Assembly (NCBI RefSeq): GCF_000242595.2
Contig: NC_017098.1
Location: 1,674,001 to 1,738,000 of the forward strand
Length of the DNA stretch: 64,000 nucleotides
Direction: 5' to 3'
From: Spirochaeta africana DSM 8902
GTDB taxonomy: Bacteria > Spirochaetota > Spirochaetia > DSM-27196 > DSM-8902
This document shows, piece after piece, positions 38,101-44,139 of the stretch (within the stretch, counting starts at the first letter, position 1; every line of letters begins with the position of its first letter). Made by a program: the position numbers and the translations under genes. The notes under the pieces were generated by a model. That model was not told where the DNA came from and searched no databases. It saw nothing but the letters and a program-made list of their open reading frames with translations.

Positions 38101-39194
38101 CTGGCAACCGCACGGAGTACAGTATAACCGACATCACGGTCGATACCCGTCCAACCTCGGTGTTTGCAACGGTTGAATACCCGGCAATCGCACCCAACCT
38201 CGAGGGTACCCGGGCCGAGCAACGCATCAACACCTTTGTCAATCTGACCGATGGTGCAGATCGCTGGGAGCTGCAGATTCTGGATGCGGACGAACAGATT
38301 GTCAGAACATTCTCGGGCACCGATGTGCGCAGCTCCGCCAGCCTGAGCTGGGATGGGCGCACCGAGGACGGAGAAATCATCGAGGGCCGCTTCCGGGCGC
38401 GATTCATTGTAGACTACGAAAAAGGCAATCGTCCGACAGCCCGAACCCGTGAGTTCCTGGTGGATACCACCCCGCCCAGCGCAGATATTGTACTGGATCC
38501 GGTCCCGTTCTCGCCCGACAATGATGGTATCGACGATGAGCTTTCAATTGCACTGAATCTTGAGGATGCCAGCGGGATTGCCGACTGGCGGTTCGAGATC
38601 CGTGATCGCAACAATCGCCCGTTCCATATTATCGAGGGTTCCGGCGCACCGGGGCGAACCCTGACCTGGGATGGCCGGTCATCTATTACCGGCGAACTGG
38701 TAATCTCTGCCGAGGACTATCCCTACGAGTTCACCGTCAGTGACGTTCTTGGGAATACCGCGGTGTACACCGGGGTTATACCAATCGATATCCTGGTGAT
38801 TCGCGATGGTGATCGTCTGAAGGTACAGATCCCCTCGATCACCTTTGCCGCCAACAGCCCCGAACTGCTCGTAGACCCGGACACCGAGGTCGGAGCCAAG
38901 AATCGTGCAATCGTAGAGCGTCTGGTCGAGATTTTTACCCGGTACAATGCCTACAGTATTCAGGTCGAGGGACACGCGGTAAACCTTACTCAGACGGCAC
39001 GTGAGGAACGTGAGGAGCTGCAGCCGCTCAGCCTGGCTCGGGCACAGTCGGTGCGCCAGGCCTTAATCGACGGTGGGTTGAGTTCAAACCGGATTACCGC
39101 TGTAGGGCGCGGTGGCATGGAGCCGATCGTGCCCCATACCGACGAGGACGAGCGCTGGAAGAACCGCCGTGTCGAGTTTATCCTGATTCGCTGA
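35136..39194 (+). CDS. Giant exported protein: porin-like N-terminus, FlgD-Ig repeats, OmpA C-terminus
   Basis: This 1352-aa protein is probably a cell-envelope protein. A signal peptide (MRVIAVLLLALLPLSLSGQY, residues 13-32) leads to a beta-rich region to ~340 resembling spirochaete outer-membrane barrel proteins (FLDFSYLTGVDFSSGG, then SLQTGLGLDLHEV). Residues about 348-1220 hold eight FlgD-Ig-like repeats marked by FSPNxDGxxD and WDGR motifs. The C-terminal ~115 residues are an OmpA peptidoglycan-binding domain (ITFAANSPELLVD, LSLARAQSVRQAL, KNRRVEFILIR). The TTG start at 35136 has AGGAGGT 9 nt upstream; an ATG at 35172 is the alternative. The stop overlaps the dnaG start. It could link the outer membrane to the cell wall. 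Confidence 0.85.
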   Translation: MKQSTQIFLERSMRVIAVLLLALLPLSLSGQYNPPTGANELDRLLSPRLLATGPFGLIDEYPSASVINPAAGAPLQRTFLDFSYLTGVDFSSGGADFGAHILNLGGSYSTPAGVVSGSLQAAFAEMDMFTVGNIGRLNAAFAKTLYDTIDVGAGVQLSTGYGDRWDGGAALSLGYIHRIEDRIGLNNARYGISIAGLGKWFRGYDALSPYPSPFTPAAEFAFSPAEGDQLKLDVYAQMSAPSFRNLRGHIGTELTIRDRLSLQTGLGLDLHEVLNNGGDVGRYLPSIGLNVRIPMALPDDSNGVVAAQGWNQSELNVRTAAAPMPGESWVFAAGVNAALGVIDRTPPRIEADVADRVYISPNNDGIQDYLEFPVEITDERYVMGYRLIVRDADGETVRLIENADQRPDSEGVRNVIDRLLEVTTGIPVPETLRWDGRTDAGARADDGEYTFQIEAWDDNNNLGSSVLRTVVVDTLPPQLTLDPPQGDARIFSPSEDSLQNTVAFGQSGSQEDLWRGVILDAQDQVVRSYEWQDSAPEDFEWDGFNNDGEIVPDGVYSYRITSRDRAGNSTEKSVANIIVNTEPTPVSITISRSIFSPNDNGIHDTIRLLPEIGNTSGIRDWSITVFDSRGAAVRTYRDVGVPRSTGILFDGRNNSGQRLPEGRYRAELVVNYRNGNRPTAFSPDFVIDVTPPAATVSAEHAIFSPNNSGVRDTQILYQETSQEEEWVGILRDRNGRTVREFVWHGTAAAQFEWDGRTSSGELARDGIYSYQLTATDRAGNTGESNIVEFELNTEETPVLVTTNYDAFSPTGQGHKDTISIIPNLAKDDDIEYFRFEILRADDQQVVRTVTGSGTLREPFVWDGRNQDGLPSADGGYTAQLEILYLNGNLEQARTDVFILDTEPPQAEIAADFLLFSPDGDGRRDEIPITQRNLTDDYWIGSIVNAAGETVIEFRWGTDLQDFTWDGRDAEGNLVADGVYKYQVRSEDEAGNRTEYSITDITVDTRPTSVFATVEYPAIAPNLEGTRAEQRINTFVNLTDGADRWELQILDADEQIVRTFSGTDVRSSASLSWDGRTEDGEIIEGRFRARFIVDYEKGNRPTARTREFLVDTTPPSADIVLDPVPFSPDNDGIDDELSIALNLEDASGIADWRFEIRDRNNRPFHIIEGSGAPGRTLTWDGRSSITGELVISAEDYPYEFTVSDVLGNTAVYTGVIPIDILVIRDGDRLKVQIPSITFAANSPELLVDPDTEVGAKNRAIVERLVEIFTRYNAYSIQVEGHAVNLTQTAREEREELQPLSLARAQSVRQALIDGGLSSNRITAVGRGGMEPIVPHTDEDERWKNRRVEFILIR
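36180..38790 (+). repeat. Eight tandem FlgD-Ig-like coding repeats in two alternating types
   Basis: Each ~105-residue unit has FSPNNDG-like start, a WDGR turn and a closing GN. Units alternate: even ones end DRAGN/DEAGN/DVLGN after DGxYxYxxxxxD, odd ones end YRNGN/YLNGN/YEKGN after EGRYxAxLxVxY. The basic duplication unit therefore looks like a pair of domains. Confidence 0.75.
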
Positions 39195-40975
39195 TGGCGA
39201 TTCCGCAGCACGTTATAGAGGAAGTTACCAGGCGACTGGACATAGTCGAGCTTGTCAGTGACTATGTCCAGCTGTCACGGAAGGGAAACCGTTTCTGGGG
39301 GTTATCACCGTTCAAAACGGAGAAAACCCCCAGTTTCTCGGTCGACCCTGACAAACAGCTGTATTACTGTTTCTCTACCCAGCAAGGCGGCACCGCCATC
39401 ACATTCTATATGCAGATGGAGGGACTGGCCTTTCCCCAGGCAATTGAGCGTTTGGCAGAACGCGTCGGGGTAGCCCTGGAACATAAGGAGCTGACAGCAG
39501 CCGAGAAACGTCGTGCAGCACTGTTTGAACTCTATGATCGGGTCACCAACAGTTTTGCGCATATCTTCAACAACAGCGACCAGGCTGCTGTAGCGCGCCG
39601 CTACATGGCAGACCGGGGTTTTTCCGCCGAAGTACTCCAGCAGTTTGCGATCGGTTTTTGTCCTGCCGATCCCTTCTGGCTTTACGATTTTTTACAGAAA
39701 AAGGGGTATTCACCCGAGCTTTTGAGCCACAGCGGTCTGTTTACCCGCAAGAATCCACGACGCGCCCTGTTTGCCGGTCGCATCATGTTTGCCATCAGAA
39801 ACGAGACCGGGCGCGTGGTTGCGTTTGGCGGTCGCAGCCTGCAGGATGACGGCCCGAAATACATCAACTCGCCAGAAACAGATCTCTACTCCAAAAGTCG
39901 CATCCTGTATGGTTTCTGGGAGGCGCGACAATCGATACGTTCACGCAAGAACTTTATCGTGGTAGAAGGCTACATGGATCTGCTGGCAATGCACCAGGGC
40001 GGTTATACTCACGCCATTGCACCACTTGGCACGGCATTTACCGAAGACCATGCCCGGTTATTGTCGCGTTTTGCCGAAGAGGCCGTGCTGGCATTTGACA
40101 GCGATGCCGCCGGCTACAAGGCTGCGTTGCGAACCGCACAGCTGTGCGAGAAAAACGGCCTGATTGCCAAGGCATTGCTGCTCCCCGAGGGCGCCGACCC
40201 TGCCGATCTTTTGGAGAAGGGAGGTTTACATGGTCTGCGGAATAGTGTATCTTCTCCGGTACATGTACTCGAGTACCTATATGCGTATATCTCCTCCCAT
40301 ATCGATTCAGGTTCGGTCGATAGAACCTACAGAATCATCCGCGAGCTCGCCCCGTATCTGTCCGGCATACGTTCTGCCGTACAGCGTGAGGCGAGCTTTA
40401 CCTTTTTGGGAGAGAAACTCGGCATAGATCCCCAGGCAATTCGCAGCGATGTAGCGGGAAATGCACCGAATAGTGCATCCAGAAAGCCCGCGGTACCAGA
40501 CCGGAAGGTCAGGCAGCCGGGTATATCGCCGGAATTGTTTCTCGGGATCGCAGCGGTGGCGAATCCGGATACGTACCCGTTCATCCGCCGTAATGTAGAG
40601 ATAGATGCTCTGCAGGATGAACAGGCACGTGAGCTGTTCATTGCACTGGAAGACAGCTACCGCCGCGGCGATGCAGCCGCAGCCGACATAGTCGAACGCA
40701 TTGAGGACGATACCCTCAAGCAGGTGGTTTTACAGCGACTGGCAGGGAGTGAGTACACTTTTGCGGACGATACGCCGATAAAAGAGGCAGTCCAACGTAT
40801 ACGGGAACGTAATGTACGTATGCGAAAAAATTATCTGCAGCAGGAACTGCAGAATATCAAGGGCACGGATATCGAGTCCATTGATCAACAAAACGAGATC
40901 ATGGCCGAGATTATCCACCTGGATACTATTTTGCGCGATGTAAGGGAAAGTGCTGATGAAGGAAATGCAAAATGA
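39194..40975 (+). CDS. dnaG: DNA primase with degenerate zinc-binding domain
   Basis: This 593-aa replicative primase lays down RNA primers with DnaB. The N-terminal domain keeps the fold signature [20 protein letters not shown] and YYCF, but the CHC2 ligands are mostly lost. Ser38 and Lys41 stand where Cys and His are expected, and Thr62 replaces the last Cys; only Cys59 remains. The TOPRIM core is intact ([28 protein letters not shown]), and a helicase-binding C-terminal region follows. The ATG overlaps the upstream stop (TGATG), and rpoD starts inside the last 20 nt, giving the classic dnaG-rpoD macromolecular-synthesis pair. Confidence 0.95.
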
Positions 40976-42728
40976 TCCTGCGCTGGAGAAATTGCTGGAA
41001 TATGCCAAAAAGCGGCAGGTCATTAGCTATGACGAGATAACTGATTTTCTTCCCGAAGAGGTTGTGAATTCCGATAAAATGGATGATGTCATCGCGCTGC
41101 TGGGCAAGAACAACATCCGGCTGGAGGACGAAGACGACGCCGCCGAGGATGACGACGACAAGGAAGAGCAGGAACAGGACGAAGAGGAAGACGATACTGA
41201 TTCCAGCGCCCAGGATGCTGCCAAGCGTAGAATCGTATACAGCGACAAGGACTCGGCGGTAGACGATCCGATTCGGCTGTATCTGCGGGAAATCGGGCGG
41301 GAAAATCTGCTGACAGCGGAGCAGGAGGTCGAGCTATCCAAAAAAATGGAGGATGGCGAGAACATCATCAAGAATGTTATAAAACATTCCGGTATGGTGA
41401 TCCCCGAGCTGTCACGGCTTGCCGAAAAAGCATTTTCCAAGCAGGATCCCAAGGAACTCAACCTCTCCAAGAAGGAGATCTCCGAGTACCTTGCCGAACG
41501 ACGACGCCTGACTACCTTTTATCGGGAGGTGCTGCGAGAAATTCTGCCGGATCTTCGCACCTACATTGACGGCAAGCAGCAGCTGGTGCAGAAAGGTGAG
41601 CCCCTGGACAGCAATCCCGAGCTTACCAAGATCCGTGGGGTTATTCTGCAGAAGGTAGAGGACATCGAGTTTCATCAGCAGGAAATCCTGCTGTTTTCGG
41701 ACCGTTTTATATCGGTGTCTTCGAAGATCAGACAGTTCCAGCGCGAAGAGGATCGCATCGAAAAGCGCCTGCGGGTTGACAACATGCGAGAACTGCGGGC
41801 ACTGGGACGAGGTCTTGCCAATCCGACACAGAAACTGCGTATAGAGGAAGAGCTGGGACTCACCGCTGATTCCATCAAGGATCAGATCCGCCAGTTTCAG
41901 ATTACCGACAAGAAACTGAAGGCGTTCGAGGTGGAGTTCGAATCCTCTACCGAAGAAATCCTGCGCATGTCAGAAGAAATCGTGCGCGGCAAAACCATGA
42001 TGCAAAGTGCCAAGGATCGCCTTATCAAGGCCAACCTCCGGCTGGTGGTCAGTATTGCCAAAAAGTACACCAACCGCGGACTGCATTTCTTTGATCTTGT
42101 CCAGGAAGGCAATATCGGGCTCATCAAGGCAGTTGAAAAGTTTGAGTATCGCAAGGGATACAAGTTTTCCACCTATGCAACCTGGTGGATTCGACAGGCG
42201 ATCACCCGTTCGATATCCGATCAGGCCCGCACCATTCGCGTTCCGGTTCACATGATCGAGCAGATCAACAAGGTAGTGCGTGAGTCACGCCAACTGATGC
42301 AGATGCTCGGACGGGAACCAAACGACGAGGAAATTGCTGATCGACTCGGCTGGTCGGTCAGCCGGGTAAAATCGGTTAAGAATGTGGCGCGTGAACCGAT
42401 CTCGCTGGAAACACCGATCGGCGAGGAAGAAGACAGTCTGCTGGGAGATTTCATCGAAGACAAGGATGTCGAGAACCCGGCGCACCAGACAGCCTTTACC
42501 CTGCTGCAGGAACAGCTGCGGGGGGTGCTCTCAACATTGCCGCCTCGTGAACAAGAGGTTCTGAAGATGCGGTTCGGACTGGTGGATGGCTACAGCCTGA
42601 CGCTGGAAGAGGTAGGGCTGTACTTCAATGTTACCCGGGAACGGATCCGGCAGATCGAGGCCAAGGCATTGCGTCGGCTGCGACATCCGCGTCGCAGCCG
42701 CAAACTGAAAGACTATTTGGACAACTAA
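40956..42728 (+). CDS. rpoD: Primary RNA polymerase sigma factor (sigma-70)
   Basis: The ~590-aa housekeeping sigma factor has a region 1.1-like helical start ([20 protein letters not shown]) and an unusually acidic linker at residues 57-80. Region 1.2 is [20 protein letters not shown], region 2 is [20 protein letters not shown] followed by [19 protein letters not shown], and regions 3 and 4 end [20 protein letters not shown]. Start: ATG at 40956 follows AAGGG with better spacing than GTG 40950 or ATG 40965. It overlaps dnaG by 20 nt. The -35/-10 promoters in this window fit its standard specificity. Confidence 0.97.
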
Positions 42729-42767
42729 TATTCATGAATCATACAAGTGGGTGGACCAGGAGGCAGC

Positions 42768-43769
42768 ATGCTACAGGAAACATTTGAAAAGCTTCGCGAA
42801 CTGCAGGAGATTATTGCAGAAAAGTTCGCTATAGAGGCTGAAATACAGGAGATACCGAAAACGCTCTCTACCAAGACAGACGTACTTCAGCGGATGAAGC
42901 GCTCGTTCATCGAGCGTAATGAAAAGTATGAGTCTACTCGAAAGCATCTGGCTGACCTGCGCGTCCGTCTGAGTGAGGCCGAGGCGGCAAGAGAAAAATA
43001 CGAGCAGCAGATGGATCTGATCAAGACGCAGCGCGAGTATGAAGCCCTGGACAAGGAAATACGAGAAGCCTCGGATCGGGAACAGAACCTCCGCCGCGAA
43101 ATACAGCGAGAAGAACGCGCACTGGAAGAAGTGCAAGCCGTACTGTCCCGTGAAGAATCCATGATCCAGGATCAGGAAAAGGACCTTGAGGTTGAGCAGG
43201 AACGAATCCGCGAGCAGCAAGGGGATAAAGAAGCTACCCTGAAGGCTCTGCTGAAAAAGGAACATGCAATAACCCCGGATCTGGACGATGACCTTATCTT
43301 CAAGTTTGAGCGCATCATCCGCAGCAAGGAAGGCGTTGGTATTGTTCCGATCAAGAAGGGCACCTGCTCCGGCTGCCATATGATGCTGCCAAATCAACTG
43401 GTCAACGACGTTCGTTCAGGTGAGCACATCCATAACTGTCCCTACTGCAGCCGAATTCTTTTCTGGTTTGAGAATGTAGAGGGCGATATCCTTGGCGATG
43501 ATGCTGGCGGTCTGGTTGATCTGATGGAAAACGAGTTTGATGATGATACCGAGGGTCACGACCTGCTGGACGATTCCCTGCTGGACGAAGAAGAACTCGA
43601 TATCATGGATGACGGTGATGACACCATTACCGATGAGGAAGAGGATCTTGAAGACTCACTTATCGATGATGATGAAGAGGACGAACCGCTGGATGAGGAC
43701 GGCGATGATTTCGAAGACGACGATGTCGAAGAAGATGACGATGATATAGATGAGGATGAAGAGGAGTAG
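42768..43769 (+). CDS. Coiled-coil zinc-ribbon protein (DUF164/CT398-like) with highly acidic tail
   Basis: This 333-aa protein has a long N-terminal coiled coil (about 1-170). A zinc ribbon follows, with CxxC pairs in GTCSGCHMM and HNCPYCSR (about 200-235), as in DUF164/CT398-like proteins. The last 85 residues are extraordinarily acidic: about 54 are Asp or Glu. The start MLQETFEKL has AGGAGG 4 nt upstream. It sits between rpoD and the RNase P RNA gene, the same place as in Treponema as I recall it. Family members are of uncertain function, possibly linked to flagellar or secretion export or to nucleic-acid mimicry. Confidence 0.85.
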   Translation: MLQETFEKLRELQEIIAEKFAIEAEIQEIPKTLSTKTDVLQRMKRSFIERNEKYESTRKHLADLRVRLSEAEAAREKYEQQMDLIKTQREYEALDKEIREASDREQNLRREIQREERALEEVQAVLSREESMIQDQEKDLEVEQERIREQQGDKEATLKALLKKEHAITPDLDDDLIFKFERIIRSKEGVGIVPIKKGTCSGCHMMLPNQLVNDVRSGEHIHNCPYCSRILFWFENVEGDILGDDAGGLVDLMENEFDDDTEGHDLLDDSLLDEEELDIMDDGDDTITDEEEDLEDSLIDDDEEDEPLDEDGDDFEDDDVEEDDDDIDEDEEE

Positions 43770-43781
43770 CGAATTCCGCTC

Positions 43782-44139
43782 ACAGGGCTATGGGTGTCGG
43801 GCCGTGCCGTCGCCAGCCTGCTGGCTGGAGGAAAGTCCGGGCTTCGCAGAGCACAGCACCGGGTAGTTCCCGGGCGCATCTCCGGATGCGACAGAGAGTG
43901 CCACAGAAAATATACCGCCGCTTTGCGGTAAGGGTGAAATGGTGAGGTAAGAGCTCACCGGGAAACCGGCAACGGTTTCTGTCCTGGTAAACCTTGCTGG
44001 AAGCAAAATTAAGCAGTGGATTCGGCTGCTCGCCGGGTATCCGCGGGTAAATTGCTGGACCCTGCAGGCAACTGCAGGGCTAGATTGATGACGGCAGTAA
44101 ACAGAACCCGGCTTACCGGCCCGATTTCCATAGCCCTGT
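43782..44139 (+). ncRNA. rnpB: RNase P RNA, bacterial type A
   Basis: A ~358-nt RNA with the terminal P1 helix ACAGGGCTATGG/CCATAGCCCTGT and conserved core segments GAGGAAAGTCCGGGC, ACAGAGAGTGCCACAGAAA, GTAAGAGCTCACCG and CAGTAAACAGAACCCGGCTTA. It is the catalytic subunit that matures tRNA 5' ends. It begins 12 nt after the zinc-ribbon gene stop and may be transcribed from the same unit. Confidence 0.96.

Follow-up and report, generated by a model that had tools for sequence, protein, structure and literature searches.

In the present study, we found that the DUF164 zinc-ribbon protein of Spirochaeta africana DSM 8902 carries a long acidic C-terminal tail, which is almost certainly a real feature with its charge under selection. 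The conservation of this negative tail suggests that it functions within the transcription or RNA machinery, and not that it is a side effect of salt. DUF164 proteins are widespread and the family is already known; the present member has a charge-selected tail, predicted to be disordered, and is locked between a sigma gene and RNase P RNA. As far as the literature searched allows us to judge, the long charge-selected tail, the motif at a fixed distance behind the ribbon, and the neighborhood locked across the class are new here, and none of the open-access papers among the matches listed concerned an acidic tail in DUF164.

Fold and zinc ribbon of the DUF164 protein

The gene occupies positions 42768..43769 (+) of the window, by which we mean the whole 64,000-nucleotide stretch of DNA that was analyzed, and encodes 333 aa from an ATG, with an alternative start of the ORF at the GTG at 42747. 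Its assignment to DUF164 (Zn_ribbon_9) is based on the ORF list, Pfam, the core of the AlphaFold model, and PDB matches. PF02591 matched over its full length at aa 199-231 of 333 (43362..43460, +; E 9e-15, 54.9 bits against a cut-off of 29.1), which corresponds to the C4 ribbon with two CxxC motifs that characterizes the family, and the four cysteines (200, 203, 224, and 227) were invariant in a 13-row alignment. A Pfam scan of the 333-aa protein returned nothing besides Zn_ribbon_9/DUF164, and no delta domain. AlphaFold2, run with 47 rows, confidently modeled the zinc ribbon and a long antiparallel coiled-coil hairpin with helices at aa 2-82 and 88-168 (42771..43271, +; pLDDT about 85-98). 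The best Foldseek match was 4ilo (CT398; E 1.2e-10, TM 0.83 on the target), followed by 3na7 (HP0958) and by 5y06 and 5y05 (MSMEG_4306), which places the N-terminal coiled coil and the overall fold with those of solved DUF164 members; at E <=0.001, there were no matches other than these three proteins. The hairpin and the C4 ribbon are shared with HP0958 (FlgZ), CT398, and MSMEG_4306, as well as with BB0713 of Borrelia. The core is itself acidic, with a net charge of about -9.

The difference from the solved relatives lies behind the ribbon. CT398 (257 residues) and HP0958 (256 residues) were matched up to residues 237 and 234, respectively, and therefore end about 20 residues past the ribbon, whereas the S. 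africana protein has about 100 extra residues there, 58% of which are acidic, with a motif 14 residues in. A position close to the C-terminus is the usual architecture for the ribbon, not a criterion of the family, and has been described for all 349 DUF164 members held by Pfam in 2011 (PMC3372290), whereas the ribbon of the present protein ends at residue 231 of 333.

Composition and rarity of the acidic tail

The tail spans aa 233-333 (43464..43766, +) and contains 59 Asp or Glu among its 101 residues and no Lys or Arg. AlphaFold2 gave it a pLDDT of about 48-56 (in blocks of ten) without secondary structure, and it is predicted to be disordered. The translation confirmed the count made in the initial annotation, in which 54 of the last 85 residues were Asp or Glu (33 Asp and 21 Glu, with no Lys or Arg); the corresponding stretch, 43515-43769, keeps the reading frame and has the stop codon as its last three letters. 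A simple DNA repeat expansion appears improbable as its origin, the codons being a mixture of GAT, GAC, GAA, and GAG. A Ser-rich antisense ORF at 43556-43879 (-) was read as a shadow of these GAN codons.

The tail had also been called extreme, and the genome bears this out. Among 234 ORFs from 304 kb (50 in the window and 184 in 12 samples of 20 kb, with genes called by a longest-ORF heuristic), the next most acidic C-terminal 85 residues held 24 Asp/Glu versus 54 here, the mean being 11.3 for the 50 ORFs of the window, DUF164 included, and 9.7 for the 184 sampled ORFs. When the whole 3.29-Mb genome was scanned for twelve Asp/Glu codons in a row with up to two mismatches, seven matches were obtained in four genes, namely rpoD (in the linker), the DUF164 gene, nusA, and a 743-aa ORF, while the reversed control pattern gave 0 matches in the same genome.

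Tail length and acidity among relatives

The tail was initially presented as unlike the family. The members from outside the class that we saw do end 3-25 residues past the ribbon, but all 37 members measured from the order have a tail, as do most of the other class loci examined, usually in a shorter form, and the tail is not a peculiarity of one genome. The comparison of tail lengths across homologues that had been proposed as a check gave 82-130 aa in the order (37 measured) and 7-138 aa in the other class loci examined. A DUF164 match was present in 39 of 46 genomes of the order and in all 20 of those with a completeness of 90% or more and a contamination of 5% or less; two of the 39 (G011 and G044) are split over contigs and were left out of the measurements, and the remaining 37 tails are 51-70% acidic with at most two Lys or Arg. 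Tails from 73 loci of other orders, taken from the relatives search and from rows hand-picked among the matches listed to spread families, were 18-138 aa long (median 48) and 31-68% acidic. Among the best 80 of 552 named loci, tails measured 7-14 aa in six and at least 75 aa in 27, with two of the named-locus tails (L153 and L157) running off the contig. In family f26, which we take to be Borreliaceae, the four tails read (from 13 tails read among 30 loci, on one strand and with strict cysteines) are 20-21 aa long, contain 3-5 acidic residues, and end in or just after G[GS]LADL.

A quickly built protein tree, in which many forks are weak, requires the label "long" (a tail of at least 75 aa, a cut of our own choosing) to have been gained or lost 5 times, and supported branches force at least 4 of these changes; one of the changes rests on a 79-aa tail. 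In this tree, the S. africana protein did not group with the remaining members of the order, whose clade includes G059 of another order (branch support 89). At G056:C24:8486-9559, two DUF164 matches were found in one 408-aa open stretch, perhaps as the result of an insertion or an assembly error.

Selection on the charge of the tail

Across 13 pairs of close relatives, 819 of the 860 acidic residues in the tail were kept acidic (4.8% lost versus 3.5% in the core), even though the tail is otherwise the faster-evolving part, with 258 of 1391 residues differing versus 184 of 3010 in the core and a faster rate in 12 of the 13 pairs; for this reason, we consider the charge to be selected. The tail also holds 75 of the 85 gap columns in these pairs. 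Exchange between Asp and Glu amounted to 14.3% in the tail and 4.8% in the core, with transversions at the fourfold sites of the core reaching 23.4%. In the tail, codon positions 1 and 2 changed at 0.08 and 0.06, as compared with 0.40 at core fourfold sites. Based on these rates, the charge is kept while Asp and Glu replace each other at roughly 0.6 times the neutral rate.

Selection on the structure of the tail mRNA was also considered, and none was seen in the 22 tails folded, whose folding energies were similar to those of synonymous shuffles (mean z -0.25, sd 0.97). A compensating basic core was another candidate, and core basicity showed no correlation with tail acidity across 153 proteins (Spearman -0.03, p 0.69, kinship ignored). 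Since the core is acidic and gains no basicity with increasing acidity of the tail, a simple clamp of the tail on its own core is unsupported.

A motif at a fixed distance behind the ribbon

A pattern search placed the motif GGLVDL at aa 247-252 (43506..43523, +); its form in the class is mostly G-[SG]-L-[AS]-D-L, and an acidic stretch of variable length comes after it. With the pattern G-(x)-[LFM]-[ASVTLMI]-[DE]-[LFVIM], which was written and widened after the sequences had been seen, the motif was detected in 118 of 153 distinct proteins at a median of 17 residues past the ribbon (IQR 16-18, range 14-24; 14 in the present protein), whereas shuffled tails yielded it in a mean of 3.1 and a maximum of 9 of 153. 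The same pattern did not find it in 35 of the 153 proteins, among them those of families f31 and f36 and the shortest tails. Docking of the motif on the protein's own core was rejected as a candidate, as the motif was unplaced in both AlphaFold models; in that of a short-tailed protein, pLDDT was <50 at residues 237-253 and 256-261, with only a three-residue helix there.

Conservation of the rpoD-DUF164-rnpB neighborhood

The primary sigma factor gene rpoD (40965..42728, +; listed as an ORF from the GTG at 40950), identified by Pfam through sigma-70 regions 1.1, 1.2, 2, 3, and 4, lies directly upstream, and together with the PF02591 match it substantiates the earlier description of a DUF164-type zinc-ribbon protein beside rpoD. 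The ORF upstream of rpoD was assigned to dnaG, DNA primase (39194..40975, +), by its sequence and by the arrangement dnaG-rpoD-DUF164 (PMC3372290). On the other side, 24 nt past the DUF164 stop codon, is rnpB, the RNase P RNA of bacterial class A (43794..44131, +; RF00010, 277.5 bits). The acidic insert previously noticed in RpoD is real, with 22 Asp/Glu in the 40 residues from aa 40, and corresponds, from its composition, the Pfam matches, and the Asp/Glu-run scan, to the linker between regions 1.1 and 1.2 (41121..41207, +). This linker is acidic in many primary sigma factors, and we therefore take that of S. africana to be ordinary.

Over the class loci examined, the order rpoD-DUF164-rnpB is nearly invariant. 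In a set that contains some genomes twice, the C-terminus of RpoD was located upstream of DUF164 on the same strand at all 185 loci that include 500 nt or more of upstream sequence (median distance 30 nt), and an rnpB match was located within 900 nt downstream on the same strand at 183 of 186 loci. The exceptions were L079, in which rnpB was reported on the other strand right past the stop codon, and L108 and L208, with none within the stretch examined. Estimated from the match to the rnpB of the window, the distance from the stop codon to the start of rnpB was up to 60 nt for 154 of the 183 loci, up to 120 nt for 173, and at most 323 nt. Rfam measurements at 30 loci, which contain one genome twice (L023 and L137), gave a distance of -3 to 57 nt for 28 loci and of 84 and 116 nt for the other two, and in another Rfam scan 19 of 20 loci had an RF00010 match, the exception being L230, which is of another class. 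This tight spacing indicates that rnpB is co-transcribed with the DUF164 gene or that its promoter overlaps it. The link to rpoD in 12 spirochaete species and the position of rnpB beside DUF164 in Borrelia have been described previously, and both rpoD and dnaG have been reported to adjoin DUF164 in several bacterial groups (PMC3372290); the near-invariance over the class loci was measured here.

The position of rnpB directly behind DUF164 leaves little room for a separate promoter in most of the class loci examined. At most of the 30 loci, the best promoter match was no better than those in two-base block shuffles (lowest p 0.01, 0.045, and 0.055). In L028, a weak promoter-like pair before rnpB, TTGTCG-17-TAGACT, overlaps the codons of the DLVD motif and was no better than shuffles; a similar arrangement was seen by eye in L161.

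Possible function of the tail

In a 2011 study, the functions of DUF164 proteins were called virtually unknown (PMC3372290). BB0713 of Borrelia, which has the same architecture, has since been reported to sediment in RNA polymerase subunit fractions, to anneal RNA, displace strands, and moderately unwind a terminator, and to antiterminate in E. coli (PMC13285594). Since the tails of f26 are short and barely acidic, these published activities probably need no long acidic tail. The Waddlia homologue of CT398 binds heparin, gave 835 ChIP peaks, and pulls down RpoD, a pull-down that was unconfirmed by a second method and is perhaps indirect according to its authors (PMC6426960). HP0958 prevents the rapid turnover of RpoN (PMC3372290), and the present protein may be linked to RpoN in the manner of HP0958 and CT398; the co-occurrence of rpoN is uninformative in this respect because the gene is present in 57 of 61 genomes.

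Nucleic-acid mimicry or the binding of basic partners is the best-supported class of explanation for the tail, whose role is putative. Within this class, we tentatively prefer a polymerase-associated RNA chaperone in which the disordered acidic tail would mimic nucleic acid and thereby speed release. The core of zinc ribbon and coiled coil would touch nascent RNA as well as either the polymerase or its primary sigma factor, and a partner would be docked by the short motif behind the ribbon. The polyanionic tail would rival RNA or DNA in occupying basic surfaces, whether those of the core or those of RNA polymerase, as a result of which RNA would be released and the factor or polymerase would turn over; we infer every one of these steps. 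The identity of two of the other three acidic-run genes, RpoD and NusA, argues weakly for this explanation, weakly because acidic segments are known in NusA and in primary sigma factors, and because runs also occur in unrelated proteins. Such segments have been described in E. coli NusA (PMC7171158). Against it stand the acidic, uncompensated core, the apparent activity of short-tailed relatives, and the tails of only 7-14 aa in six of the best 80 named loci; the fast evolution of the tail and its gaps would also fit a loosely constrained bristle.

Three known systems resemble this arrangement. RNA polymerase delta (RpoE of Bacillus) similarly combines a folded N-terminal part with a disordered acidic C-terminal region of similar length, namely residues 91-173 with a net charge of -47 (PMC7749165), and is linked to RNA polymerase, as is putatively the DUF164 protein. 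The latter shares with delta the long acidic C-terminal region, predicted in this case to be disordered, but the folds are unrelated, with a coiled coil and zinc ribbon in one and a sigma1.1-like domain in the other; no sigma1.1-like N-terminal domain was found in the Pfam or fold matches, and the protein is not a member of the delta family. In Hfq, a disordered, variable, and acidic C-terminus is likewise attached to an RNA chaperone, a role that is putative for DUF164, and its acidic tip has been proposed as a nucleic-acid mimic (PMC5606850); Hfq differs in having an Sm core with a short acidic tip, whereas the DUF164 core is acidic overall and its whole tail is charged. NusA carries an acidic C-terminal segment on a polymerase-bound RNA-binding factor, and in E. 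coli the acidic C-terminal repeats autoinhibit RNA binding (PMC7171158), but E. coli AR2 is a folded domain while the DUF164 tail is predicted to be unfolded.

If the tail clears RNA or DNA from the polymerase, spirochaetes would have independently evolved a delta-like recycling device. The more specific proposal, in which DUF164 would be an undescribed RNA-polymerase-associated spirochaete factor tied to the primary sigma factor by its operon, with a tail that clears nucleic acid, and hence a convergent counterpart of delta with an unrelated fold, appears unlikely to us in this full form. The tail and the motif represent clean deletion targets for testing the recycling idea, and the tails of 7 to 138 residues constitute a natural series for the role of acidic disordered tails.

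Among the alternatives to such a chaperone, a solubility tail or entropic bristle, by which a polyanion would keep a coiled-coil protein soluble without any specific partner, its length drifting while its charge is kept, seems to us doubtful. It agrees with the range of lengths from 7 to 138 aa, which changed several times, with residues that drift under a constant charge, with the faster evolution of the tail than of the core in 12 of 13 pairs and its share of the gaps, and with a core that, judging from BB0713, seems functional in short-tailed lineages. However, a motif at a fixed distance from the ribbon exceeds the needs of solubility, and none of the 233 other sampled ORFs, among which coiled-coil proteins were not taken as a class, has a comparable C-terminus. 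It is somewhat less probable that the motif and the acidic stretch recruit one basic protein without nucleic-acid mimicry, the candidates for which would be a polymerase surface, the RNase P protein, a ribosomal protein, or a helicase. The fixed distance of the motif in 118 of the 153 proteins, its position right at the C-terminus in the four proteins read from f26, and the nearly invariant rpoD and rnpB neighborhood would be expected from such recruitment, but the motif was not found in 35 of the 153, including f31, f36, and the shortest tails, and is left unplaced by AlphaFold.

An adaptation to salt or alkali, in which the tail would reflect halophilic or haloalkaliphilic life and not the function of the protein, is improbable. 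The most uniformly long tails do occur in the order that holds Salinispira, Alkalispirochaeta, and many MAGs with soda-lake-sediment isolate names, whose habitat is presumed from these, but the order is one lineage and thus provides no independent cases. Furthermore, the median pI was 5.73 for the 50 ORFs and 5.98 for the 184 ORFs of S. africana, from which the proteome, assessed without a salt-in yardstick genome, does not look like that of a salt-in halophile and shows no acid shift; the values for Salinispira and G052 were 5.64 and 5.69. The initial annotation had named, as the case against a special tail, one that was equally acidic in all halophilic relatives through general proteome acidity. 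The first half of this holds, in that relatives do have the tail and with equal acidity, while the second does not, and with a median pI of about 5.7-6.0 and only four genes with Asp/Glu runs genome-wide, we rejected general proteome acidity as its source. Among the best 80 of 552 loci, moreover, tails of 29 aa in Marispirochaeta and 33 aa in Thalassospirochaeta, whose names presumably point to the sea, stand against one of 77 aa in the MAG Go_SlDig, whose name we take to hint at a sludge digester, and one of 47 aa with 27 acidic residues in Breznakiella, a gut isolate. It is very improbable that the GA-rich codons act as DNA or RNA before rnpB, in the form of a promoter, insulator, or processing leader for RNase P RNA with the peptide as a by-product, since, for all the closeness of rnpB to the stop codon in 28 of the 30 Rfam-measured loci, much the same spacing accompanies tails of 7 to 138 aa, promoter matches are no better than block shuffles at most loci, the 22 tail mRNAs fold like synonymous shuffles, and codon positions 1 and 2 are constrained.

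Other proteins with acidic runs

Two of the acidic-run genes of S. africana are located outside the window. In NusA (G000:C1:1761037-1761113, -, L247), an acidic insert separates C-terminal repeats that match HHH_5 and RNA_pol_A_CTD, and the 743-aa ORF near G000:C1 1638828 (-, L242) consists of 38% Asp/Glu and has no Pfam match. Ten further genomes were scanned, and the places found were inspected by eye in part, with several of those in G052 left out. The acidic run of NusA was also present in G001, G014, G002, and G356, other runs occurred in proteins resembling ClpA, galactokinase, FtsK, and ClpP, and those inspected in G052 resembled shadows in other reading frames. With the reversed control pattern, 14 matches arose in G008 and none in the other nine genomes. 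In two genomes of the same class, at G209:C1:868800 and G214:C1:708902 (L287 and L289), short ORFs of 112 and 117 aa from stop to stop are composed largely of Asp and Glu with Phe and Tyr.
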